Source: Prochloraceae cyanobacterium PL24a_bin.78
GTDB taxonomy: Bacteria; Cyanobacteriota; Cyanobacteriia; Cyanobacteriales; JANQIW01
Direction: 5' to 3'
DNA length: 64,000 nt
Assembly (NCBI GenBank): GCA_028281945.1
Contig: JANQIW010000168.1
Coordinates: 1 to 64,000, forward strand
The notes below the pieces were generated by a model. The model had not been told where the DNA came from. It ran no database searches and saw only the letters and a list, made by a program, of their open reading frames with translations. The translations under genes and the position numbers were made by a program. Numbering within the stretch: position 1 is the first letter of the stretch; every line of letters starts with the position of its first letter. Of this stretch, positions 23,458-30,897 are shown piece by piece.

Positions 23458-23688
23458 TTAATCATTCCATTCACCTTTAGGAGGAACGGGAGGATTGCGT
23501 CCAAAACTACGAGTGAGATCATCATCTCTTTCTCGTTCGCCTTTAAGCCATTGTTTGATTGCCGTTTCAATCACTTTACTAGGATCGCTAGTTAAATGAT
23601 TGATTTGATCTAACAATTCTGAATCCAAATTAATCGTGATCTCCACTTTCTCAGTGTTACGCTGAGATTCGACAGCATTGTTGTTCAT
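23458..23688 (-). CDS. Ribbon-helix-helix antitoxin-like protein (CcdA/CopG type)
   Basis: A 76-residue protein. Residues 14-50 (EKVEITINLDSELLDQINHLTSDPSKVIETAIKQWL) form the strand-helix-helix of the MetJ/Arc/CopG fold, followed by an acidic and proline-rich tail (NPPVPPKGEWND) of the kind that binds a toxin. Such proteins repress their own operon and neutralise a toxin encoded immediately downstream. No intact toxin gene follows. The assignment to CcdA, as opposed to other RHH antitoxins, is approximate. Confidence 0.75.
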   Translation of the reverse strand: MNNNAVESQRNTEKVEITINLDSELLDQINHLTSDPSKVIETAIKQWLKGERERDDDLTRSFGRNPPVPPKGEWND

Positions 23689-26216: not shown

Positions 26217-26498
26217 TTAAATAGAATTTAATTCATCTCCTAATTTATTCTTTGCTTCCATCAGTTCATAAGTATTTTGTAATCTTAGAAAATAACCTTC
26301 TGATAGTCCAAAGTAATGACATAAGCGTAAGTCAATCTCGGCAGTAATAGGAAGAGTTCCTTTAATAATATCATTAATCTGATGAGGAGATACTTTAATA
26401 GCATTAGCTAAAGTATTTTGATTCATCCCTAACTCTTCTAAAAATTCATACTTAAGTATGTCTCCTCCATGGGGGTTTTTTATTTGTTTTTCTAACAT
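26217..26498 (-). CDS. HigA-family antitoxin (XRE helix-turn-helix), orphan
   Basis: A 93-residue DNA-binding antitoxin. The family layout is clear: an N-terminal GGDILKYEFLEELGMNQNTLANAIKVSPHQINDIIKGTLPITAEIDLRLCHYFGLSEGYFLRLQNTYEL, similar to HigA/VapI proteins (usual PGEIL is GGDIL here). HigA is normally preceded by a RelE-fold HigB gene; the 330 bases upstream contain no such frame. It may control other genes or act as a leftover antitoxin. It is convergent with lepA across a terminator. Confidence 0.88.
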   Translation of the reverse strand: MLEKQIKNPHGGDILKYEFLEELGMNQNTLANAIKVSPHQINDIIKGTLPITAEIDLRLCHYFGLSEGYFLRLQNTYELMEAKNKLGDELNSI

Positions 26499-27395: not shown

Positions 27396-27596
27396 TTAAG
27401 TTACTTTATAAGATTTATTTTCACTTAAAATTACTTCTTGTAAACACTCTACTATTTGAGGAGAAAAAAATTGTTCCCCTGTCTCCTCATTAACTCTTGC
27501 TGGAACATTTTTTACCAAAACTAACTCCCCATTAATTTCTAAAGAATAAGTAACTAATTTATTAACTAAATAATTTTCTTCATCATGAATATTCAT
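27396..27596 (-). CDS. YgiT-type antitoxin-like protein without zinc finger
   Basis: A 66-residue protein matching the middle of YgiT/MqsA-type proteins: VTYSLEINGELVLVKNVPARVNEETGEQFFSPQIVECLQ. The CxxC zinc pairs usually present are replaced (NEETGE in place of a CxxCG), a variant common in cyanobacteria. These proteins normally follow a DUF4258-type toxin; here only the toxin's last codons remain upstream. Its ribosome-binding site AGGAGG is formed by the terminal Arg-Arg codons of that remnant. Confidence 0.72.
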   Translation of the reverse strand: MNIHDEENYLVNKLVTYSLEINGELVLVKNVPARVNEETGEQFFSPQIVECLQEVILSENKSYKVT

Positions 27597-27787: not shown

Positions 27788-28294
27788 ATGGCAAATATTA
27801 TGCTAGAAAATCTCATCATATATTTTATTTATAAAACTAAAGGCTATATCACCAAACGGCAACTGGTATGTTTTATTTATTTAGCAGATTTATATATGGT
27901 GAAATGGACAGAAAAACAATTAACTCCACTAGATTGGCGTTATAGTGGGGATTTACCTTACCATGAAGAAATTGATAATATTTTAAATAAATGGCTGGAT
28001 CAGAATTTACTTAGATTAGAAACGGAAGGTAATACAGCTTTAATGATATTAAACCAAGATAATTTAGATTTAGATAGAATAAAATTTCCTAAAAGTTTAG
28101 ATTTGATGTTAGATAATATTAGAACAGAATGGGCTGGTTTAACCAAAGAGCGAAACGAGGCTTTACAAGATTATATTCGTACAACAGAACCAATCCAAGA
28201 TATTCAGACTAAATCTCATAATAATCTAGGACAAGAGATAAGGCTTAATCTTAAATTAGAAAGAAAGAAGTTGATGAAAGAATTAGGAATTTAG
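27788..28294 (+). CDS. Panacea/SocA-like (DUF4065-type) protein, possible antitoxin
   Basis: A 168-residue protein. Residues 4-70 (LENLIIYFIYKTKGYITKRQLVCFIYLADLYMVKW..., PLDWRYSGDLPYHEEIDNILNKW) follow the pattern of the Panacea domain: a helical start, K-x-x-L-x-x-x-x-YLAD, then a W-x-Y-x-G-P-like turn. Panacea proteins are antitoxins able to pair with many unrelated toxins. The C-terminal part is charged and probably helical. The next gene starts six bases after the stop, so the two are translationally linked. The domain call is by eye. Confidence 0.6.
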   Translation: MANIMLENLIIYFIYKTKGYITKRQLVCFIYLADLYMVKWTEKQLTPLDWRYSGDLPYHEEIDNILNKWLDQNLLRLETEGNTALMILNQDNLDLDRIKFPKSLDLMLDNIRTEWAGLTKERNEALQDYIRTTEPIQDIQTKSHNNLGQEIRLNLKLERKKLMKELGI

Positions 28295-28300
28295 TTAGAC

Positions 28301-28852
28301 ATGGCAGGAAAACAACCAAGACAAGGATGGATTTATACTATTAATTCTGATGAATTTTGGTTTAAAGATAAATCTTTTTTAGATAAAAAGAAAGAGCAAC
28401 CTATTTATAGTATGAATTTTGGTGGATCTACTTATTTAGTTTGGAAGAATAATAAATCTCAACAAGGGAAAAATTCTCTTCAAACTTTAACAGTAATTCC
28501 TTTGACTGTTGAGACTACTTGGGTTGGTTTACCAACAACTTACCCCATTACAGCTACAAAAAGAAACCAACTTTCTACGAATTTTTATGGGTTAATTCAT
28601 CAAGTATGTATTATTGATGGTAATCTTTTTCAAGATAATTTAGGAAATTGGCTACCTCGCATTGGGCAATTAGACAAAAATGATAAGGAAAAAATTGAGG
28701 AAAGATTATCTTATTATTTAAGTTCTAATAGAATTTCCCATACAGATCAATTTAAAAACCATATTTCTCCCAAATTATTAGAAAAAATTTATGAGAATCT
28801 CCAAGGAGAGAAAAAAGAAGAAATCCTTAAGAATTTATTAGATGAGTTTTAG
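28301..28852 (+). CDS. PemK/MazF-like protein, possible toxin
   Basis: A 183-residue protein. It starts QGWIYTIN and later has VIPLT (about 66-70), LPTTYPI, then HQVCIIDGNLF...IGQLDKNDKEKIEERLSYYL. This order matches the PemK/MazF endoribonuclease fold: W-x-V/Y-x-N start, V-V/I-P-L-T strand, then Q-V-x-x-I-D and I-G-x-L. The usual RPVLVVS phrase is replaced by STYLVW. It carries an extra C-terminal helical tail. It follows the Panacea-like gene with a six-base gap, as expected for an antitoxin-toxin pair. Activity is unproven. Confidence 0.55.
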   Translation: MAGKQPRQGWIYTINSDEFWFKDKSFLDKKKEQPIYSMNFGGSTYLVWKNNKSQQGKNSLQTLTVIPLTVETTWVGLPTTYPITATKRNQLSTNFYGLIHQVCIIDGNLFQDNLGNWLPRIGQLDKNDKEKIEERLSYYLSSNRISHTDQFKNHISPKLLEKIYENLQGEKKEEILKNLLDEF

Positions 28853-29076: not shown

Positions 29077-30897
29077 ATGAATTACTTAACCCCCATTTGG
29101 ATATCTCTAAAAACGGCTACTACTGCTACAATTATTACTTTTTTCTTAGGCATAATAGCTGCATGGTGGATGTTAGGGTATCGGGGTAAATTTAAGGCAA
29201 TAATCGAGGGTTTATTAACGGCTCCTTTAGTACTTCCTCCCACAGTAATGGGATTTATTTTACTACTTTTGTTTGGTAGAAATGGGTTTATTGGAAAAAT
29301 TTTAAATTATTTTGACCTTACAATTATTTTCACTTGGTATGCTACAGTTATTGCTTCAACGGTTGTAGCTTTTCCTTTAATGTATAAAACAGCTTTAGGC
29401 GCATTCAAACAAATTGATTCTAATCTTCTTGCTTGTGCTAGAACCCTTGGTGCATCAGAGTGGAGGATTTTTAGACAAATTATATTACCTTTAGCTACCC
29501 ATGGCTTGATTGCTGGAACCATACTGACTTTTGCTCGAGCTTTGGGGGAATTTGGGGCAACTTTAATGTTAGCGGGTTCCATTCCAGGGAAAACCAATAC
29601 TATTCCTATTGCGATTTTCTTTGCGGCTGAAAGTGGAGATATGGATCGAGCTTTATTTCTCACTTTGATTATGTTAGGAATGTCTCTAGGGGTAATTGGA
29701 GCTGTTAATTATTGGACGGAAAATAACAGATATGGCAAATCGAAATTTCCTAAATTTTGGATGACTCAAGCCAAACCAGGAAAAAAATCTGTGAATTATC
29801 CTCTTCCCAAAACTGAATTTGAATTAATTGTCAAGATTGAAAAACAACTACCCGGATTTTTATTAGATGTTGCTTTTAAGACGAATCAGGTACCATTGGG
29901 TTTGTTAGGTGCTTCTGGTGCGGGAAAAAGCCTGATTTTACGGTCTATTGCTGGTTTGGAAAATCCTGATAAGGGCTATATTATTCTCAATGGAAAAACA
30001 TTATTCGATTCCTCTAAAGGGATTAATTTACCGCCTCAAGATCGAGCTTGTGGTTTTTTGTTTCAAAATTATGCCCTCTTTCCTCATTTAACTGTTGCGG
30101 AAAATATTGCTTTTGGTATGCCTAGGGAAAATTCTCTCAGGGAAATTAAACAAGAGGTAGAATATCAATGCACAGCAGTGGATTTACCTGGAATGGGCGA
30201 TCGTTATCCTAGTGAACTTTCAGGAGGACAACAACAACGGGTGGCTTTGGCAAGAGCGATGGCTAGTAAACCAGAAATTCTCCTTTTAGATGAACCTTTT
30301 TCTGCTTTAGATACTTATTTAAGAGATAGACAAGAAAAACTTCTTAGAAAAAATCTAACTCATTATCAGGGAATTACTCTATTTATCACTCATAATTTGG
30401 AAGAAGCTTATCGCGTATGTCCAAATCTTTTGGTTATTGATGGCGGAAGAATTATTGGTTATGATGATAAGCATAAAATTTTTGACTATCCTTATAATTT
30501 TAGAACTGCACAACTGACTGGGTGTAAGAATTTTTCTCGAATTACTGTAATAAATAAACACAAAGTTAATGCTATTGAATGGAACTGTATTCTCGATGTT
30601 GCCGAACCTATTGGTAATTCTAATTACATAGGTATTCGCGCTCATCAACTTATTTTTCCTAATAACGATAACGATAACAATGATGAGGTGAATAGTTTCC
30701 CTTGCTGGTTAGCTAATATTAGTGAAACTCAACATCGGATGACTTTATATCTAAAATTACACCAACCTGCTAGACATTCTGATGATTATCATATCCAAGC
30801 TGAAGTTTTTAAGAATAAATGGTTGAAATTAAAAGATCGTCCTTTTCCTTGGAATGTTCAACTTAATCCAGTGCGAATCATGTTACTTCATGGATAG
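29077..30897 (+). CDS. modBC: Fused molybdate ABC transporter permease/ATPase (ModB-ModC)
   Basis: Molybdate importer with both core parts in one chain. Residues 1-215 are the ModB permease with five to six membrane spans and the EAA loop (ARTLGASEWRIFRQIILPL); the closing section includes FARALGEFGATLMLAGS, typical of ModB. Residues about 255-470 are the ModC ATPase: Walker A GASGAGKS (about 280-287), LSGGQQQR (about 382), Walker B LLLDEP (about 403). A C-terminal part of about 110 residues resembles a TOBE molybdate-binding region. Such fusions are known in cyanobacteria. No modA is in the window. Confidence 0.93.
   Translation: MNYLTPIWISLKTATTATIITFFLGIIAAWWMLGYRGKFKAIIEGLLTAPLVLPPTVMGFILLLLFGRNGFIGKILNYFDLTIIFTWYATVIASTVVAFPLMYKTALGAFKQIDSNLLACARTLGASEWRIFRQIILPLATHGLIAGTILTFARALGEFGATLMLAGSIPGKTNTIPIAIFFAAESGDMDRALFLTLIMLGMSLGVIGAVNYWTENNRYGKSKFPKFWMTQAKPGKKSVNYPLPKTEFELIVKIEKQLPGFLLDVAFKTNQVPLGLLGASGAGKSLILRSIAGLENPDKGYIILNGKTLFDSSKGINLPPQDRACGFLFQNYALFPHLTVAENIAFGMPRENSLREIKQEVEYQCTAVDLPGMGDRYPSELSGGQQQRVALARAMASKPEILLLDEPFSALDTYLRDRQEKLLRKNLTHYQGITLFITHNLEEAYRVCPNLLVIDGGRIIGYDDKHKIFDYPYNFRTAQLTGCKNFSRITVINKHKVNAIEWNCILDVAEPIGNSNYIGIRAHQLIFPNNDNDNNDEVNSFPCWLANISETQHRMTLYLKLHQPARHSDDYHIQAEVFKNKWLKLKDRPFPWNVQLNPVRIMLLHG

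Follow-up and report, generated by a model that had tools for sequence, protein, structure and literature searches.

Two adjacent genes in a cyanobacterial genome bin (Prochloraceae cyanobacterium PL24a_bin.78) raise the question of whether a Panacea antitoxin can be encoded with a divergent MazF-fold toxin in cyanobacteria and, if so, whether that pairing is new. Antitoxins of the Panacea type are known to counteract many unrelated toxins, and an earlier note on this window (the whole stretch of 64,000 nucleotides analysed) had described a Panacea-like gene followed, six bases later, by a PemK/MazF-like gene, calling for profile searches, structure prediction and a survey of co-occurrence. 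The two open reading frames (168 and 183 amino acids) and their spacing are real, all of the motifs named in that description (TKRQLVCFIYLAD, WRYSG, VIPLT, HQVCIID, and IGQL) are present in the pair, and the second protein does lack the phrase RPVLVVS. The antitoxin more likely starts at the ATG at 27800 (MLENL; 164 amino acids) than at 27788, because nearly all relatives begin at the equivalent codon. The pair is not a chance arrangement, since homologues of both genes are found in the same order and with the same spacing in dozens of cyanobacteria. Judged by family membership, predicted fold, gene order, co-occurrence, conserved cysteines and histidine, and patterns of decay, the locus is very likely a type II toxin-antitoxin operon in which PanA guards a PanT of MazF/PemK fold, the window carrying an altered copy. 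PADLOC, NCBIfam, and PHROGs searches were uninformative for the pair, and scans for promoters, terminators, and Rfam families gave signals no better than chance.

Table 1. Features of the gene pair and its surroundings, in window coordinates.
Feature	Coordinates	Strand	Basis or remark
panA, Panacea-type antitoxin gene (assigned via relatives)	27788..28294	+	42-52% full-length identity to bona fide Panacea relatives
SGDLPY, at the position of Y-x-x-[GS]-P-W in relatives	27944..27961	+	Antitoxin alignment
panT, gene for toxin of predicted PemK/MazF fold	28301..28852	+	PF02452 matches of relatives; AlphaFold/Foldseek
Lys-rich low-confidence loop, toxin residues 22-44	28364..28432	+	Replaces the CxxxH...Cx2/4C insert and RGxHP of relatives
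PLT motif, Thr aligned with conserved MazF Thr	28499..28507	+	Profile alignment with 7bxy, 4hke, 4me7
C-terminal helical extension, toxin residues 126-183	28676..28849	+	DSSP on AlphaFold model
CcdA/RHH-like ORF, weak	23458-23688	-	E 0.016-0.028
HigA-family antitoxin	26217-26498	-	TIGR02607, 83.7 bits (cut-off 47.7)
YgiT/MqsA-like ORF	27396-27596	-	19.4 bits, just under cut-off 20.2

Families and predicted fold

Profile searches place the relatives of both proteins in the expected families, but leave the window proteins themselves under the Pfam cut-offs. The window antitoxin alone has no Pfam match, including to PF13274 (SocA_Panacea), and the window toxin alone scores 16.8 bits against PF02452 (PemK_toxin; E=0.0081), below the cut-off of 23.1. 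PF13274 is matched by 23 of the 25 antitoxins in the alignment of the window antitoxin (E <= 0.01; best 3e-10), and antitoxin relatives run singly score above its cut-off; PF02452 is matched by all 26 aligned toxins, the relatives having E-values of 4e-9 to 1.6e-12 and 37-48 bits. The identity of the window pair is settled because these relatives, at about 50% identity, match SocA_Panacea and PemK_toxin, and the upstream gene most likely encodes a single-domain Panacea antitoxin (PanA), as judged through its relatives.

PDB searches that used single sequences or the profile of the antitoxin returned noise or no match, and the toxin profile found MazF/EndoA chains weakly (E 0.04). The AlphaFold model of the window toxin (pLDDT 70.4) has MazF structures as its top Foldseek matches (E 5e-5), with TM-scores by target of 0.59-0.76, while for the model of a relative, the L018 toxin (pLDDT 84.7), the PDB matches at E <= 0.001 are all MazF-family toxins (best 4e-5). 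The window toxin is thus predicted to have the MazF fold. The conserved Thr that ends the strand after the RPV strand is present, PLT lying over the AIT of MazF; it aligns with the Thr of VAAIT in Bacillus MazF chains and is conserved in nearly all rows of the family. The extra C-terminal helix proposed earlier appears in the model as several helices (residues 126-144, 150-154, 157-165, and 170-181 by DSSP) with equivalents in the L018 model, which form an addition to the MazF core of roughly 115 residues.

Family anatomy and departures of the window copy

The family toxins are about 200 amino acids long and begin with MAGxxPRQGWIYxINP, followed by C-x3-H-x-[HY]-x-Y and then C-x2-C or C-x4-C, after which come NSSRVxRGxHPYIIW and the MazF core. 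The Cys/His segment, a zinc-ribbon-like insert that follows the first strand and precedes the RGxHPYIIW strand, has its full set of four Cys and His positions in 39 of 40 distinct toxins, the single exception being the window copy. The alternation of Cx2C and Cx4C spacing among toxins that are otherwise similar in sequence fits a metal knuckle, and the insert would be a candidate zinc site. No literature linking MazF with a zinc ribbon was found in open-access full text.

The catalytic pair of MazF consists of the Arg of the RPV motif and the conserved Thr. In an hhalign comparison with the ordinary MazF of the host, the His of RGxHP aligns with that Arg at E 0.002 but with a low probability of 13.8%. 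The ordinary MazF itself is a 121-amino acid protein encoded on another contig of the host (L088 1318-1978, minus strand), with 71 bits to PF02452 and a 104-amino acid partner upstream. The cyanobacterial family has His in place of the catalytic Arg, and the window toxin reads GGSTYLVW, with no clear equivalent. The assignment to the MazF fold holds, and canonical MazF catalysis is not claimed for the cyanobacterial toxins; going by these residues, the toxins may lack ribonuclease activity or have one of a different kind.

The earlier reading of fold and partner is supported, but the window pair is an atypical copy. Its toxin is short of 22 alignment columns in which relatives have RGxHP and the second knuckle, the first knuckle has had its Cys and His substituted as well, and residues 22-41 are modelled with pLDDT below 50. 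An assembly error behind the missing 22 residues was considered and rejected, as the reading frame is unbroken and the deletion comes together with inserted and substituted residues nearby. Identity to the family is highest at the N termini and lowest in three regions, namely the toxin's ribbon, its RGxHP motif, and the antitoxin's variable part; the window branches are long for both genes (1.03 against a median of 0.094, and 1.46 against 0.11). The relatives searched include no other genome of the host's own family.

The antitoxin has changed as well. Family antitoxins read Y-x-x-[GS]-P-W at the WRYSG region of the window protein, so that the WxYSG motif, taken earlier for a Panacea-type signature, is instead a private divergence of this copy. 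The PW is kept in 38 of 40 pairs; the two without it are the window pair and L049 (Cyanothece UBA12306), and these are also the two pairs with an altered RGxH in the toxin. A standalone Panacea domain can neutralise through its globular domain, and a residue beside its second strand (Y56 in the protein studied) matters (Kurata et al. 2023, PMC10440598). By analogy, the Y-x-x-[GS]-P-W segment of the cyanobacterial antitoxins could have a role like that of Y56.

Distribution, decayed loci, and known systems

Co-occurrence of the two genes across cyanobacteria is nearly perfect. Each of the 40 distinct near-full-length toxins is preceded, at a gap of 1-14 bases and on the same strand, by an antitoxin; within this set, the L041 antitoxin includes a stretch of undetermined bases and the start of the L045 toxin is uncertain. 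Among 60 relatives the toxin was found in seven genomes, with the antitoxin directly upstream in each, and among 386 genomes of the phylum an intact toxin was found in 13, with an adjacent antitoxin in all 13 (hypergeometric 2e-22, kinship ignored). Across 84,980 species scanned, relatives turned up in Cyanobacteria only, on chromosomes and on plasmids, including four Nostocales plasmids of which two are conjugative. In two genomes (G022 and G027) the module lies on a different contig from the homologue of the window's neighbouring modBC gene, and the site therefore appears to be non-syntenic. The modBC gene of the window (29077-30897) is one 606-amino acid ORF that resembles a molybdate-type ABC permease and ATPase (ModB and ModC) in fused form; full-length homologues, fused in the same way, are common in related cyanobacteria. 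The conserved two-gene order, patchy distribution, and presence on mobile replicons are those of a type II operon. A phage origin was considered and dropped, as viral contigs searched with the toxin and with the antitoxin, and phage records searched with the toxin, contained no relatives.

Several loci have lost part of the pair. Two further antitoxin matches were found among the 60 relatives: in G039 (locus L014) the antitoxin is kept and the toxin is gutted, so that its opening codons (MAGQ) run directly into what remains of the tail, while an antitoxin is represented in G009 by its first 28-40 codons only. In Nostoc punctiforme NIES-2108 (L037 3950-4426) the first antitoxin codons are fused in frame to the toxin at YIIW, giving a 158-amino acid ORF without ribbon, RGxHP, or antitoxin. 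The patterns in L014 and L037 fit a toxin that depends on its guard. A panA without the MazF toxin is present on plasmid pGM3709_02 of Geminocystis sp. NIES-3709 (L090 148-5419; L082), where the order methyltransferase, panA, 72-amino acid ORF, PIN toxin, and specificity subunit resembles a restriction-modification locus; a partner swap from a MazF-fold to a PIN toxin is possible there. Two Desmonostoc loci (L046 and L048) that look like truncated toxins without antitoxin were discounted, as both end at contig edges. In small genomes of the same phylum (L084 and L085), distant Panacea ORFs directly follow an ORF of 143-290 amino acids, partly membrane-bound in appearance, which would be another Panacea partner.

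The pair had also been placed in a patch of other antitoxin genes. One good HigA is present, but the two other candidates are weak (Table 1), and none has a recognised toxin adjoining it: no HigB or other toxin frame was found beside the HigA gene, whose flanks translate into short, stop-ridden frames, and no obvious toxin was recognised next to the YgiT-like or CcdA/RHH-like ORF.

The suggestion that the pairing itself is new does not stand. According to the main text of Kurata et al. 2022 (PMC8832971), PemK is among the CDD matches of Panacea-paired toxins, two validated PanTs (from Pseudomonas moraviensis and Bifidobacterium ruminantium) are predicted MazF-fold RNases, and neutralisation and translation arrest were demonstrated for those PanAT pairs. 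These systems share with the cyanobacterial family a Panacea antitoxin encoded beside a MazF/PemK-like toxin; unlike them as described there, the cyanobacterial family has a ribbon-like insert, a His at the position of the MazF Arg, and helices at the C terminus, and neither "cyanobacter" nor "zinc" occurs in that main text. RefSeq likewise names both members on Nostoc plasmid pNLP1 (WP_104910153.1, SocA-domain antitoxin; WP_104910154.1, PemK/MazF toxin). The pNLP1 pair resembles the window pair in family, order, and adjacency, but its toxin has the ribbon (in the Cx2C form) and RGxHP, both of which the window toxin lacks. MazEF and PemIK (Bacillus MazF-EndoA and Staphylococcus MazF; 4me7, 4mdx, 9g7k) share the toxin fold and the position of the PLT/AIT Thr, but the antitoxin here is Panacea rather than MazE or PemI, and the cyanobacterial toxin has 183-205 amino acids rather than about 115, and its catalytic Arg has been exchanged for His or is missing. 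SocA of the SocAB system is the namesake of the Panacea Pfam family, and SocB is an unrelated toxin. The undescribed part seems to be the anatomy of the family, that is the insert, the His, and the helices; the ribbon-less window copy seems to be new as well.

Proposed function and its rivals

In the proposed mechanism, the upstream gene would yield PanA and the downstream gene, translated immediately afterwards, PanT. The toxin of intact relatives consists of the MazF core, the zinc-ribbon-like insert, and the C-terminal helices. RNA binding and cleavage are its most likely activity; the active site would comprise the PLT Thr and the RGxH region, and the ribbon would assist in selecting or gripping the RNA. 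By analogy with PanAT and MazEF, PanA would bind the toxin directly and keep it inactive, and freed toxin would block translation, probably by cutting RNA. Could the two folds instead serve a regulatory pair with no toxin at all? The His that replaces the MazF Arg throughout the family would agree with such a role, but the patchy distribution, plasmids, non-syntenic sites, tight gene order, and patterns of toxin loss are typical of toxin-antitoxin loci and make it very improbable.

The window copy is harder to place, since attenuation, recent decay, and changed function are not separated by sequence. That the locus is decaying, with a toxin already inactive and an antitoxin drifting with nothing left to neutralise, is a tentative but sizeable possibility that concerns this copy alone and is compatible with a toxin-antitoxin function of the family. 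The loss of the Cys/His set and RGxHP in the window copy only, the long branches of both genes, the antitoxin score under the Panacea cut-off, and the nearby orphan antitoxin-like genes, which suggest frequent toxin loss in this part of the window, are all consistent with decay. However, neither frame is interrupted, the start and the spacing are preserved, and residues of the conserved core and C terminus are retained; in simulations of neutral drift to 60-80% identity both frames stayed open in <=0.1% of runs, and the proteins have therefore probably remained under some selection during most of their divergence. A change of function, in which a Lys-rich loop took the place of the ribbon and RGxHP and the antitoxin GPW changed with it, giving another target or specificity, would also keep the frames open, and it agrees with the flexibility of the new loop in the model and with the joint change of toxin RGxH and antitoxin PW in the sole two exceptions among 40 pairs. 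General acceleration can, however, produce two such cases on the longest branches, and this explanation is rather doubtful. More speculative still, and unlikely, is a wider version in which the family represents a new class of MazF-fold toxins guarded by Panacea antitoxins, with a zinc ribbon beside the active site that both targets a specific RNA and docks the antitoxin GPW, so that the joint loss in the window would be a natural re-specification of the interface. Within the preferred reading, a type II operon with an altered copy in the window, that copy is likely attenuated or repurposed, and its toxin is expected to be weakened or altered yet still produced, rather than a long-dead pseudogene.

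With about 40 pairs and two joint changes of toxin and antitoxin motifs, the family would allow a direct test of the contact site, and the same family would allow a test of what a zinc ribbon contributes to a MazF toxin.
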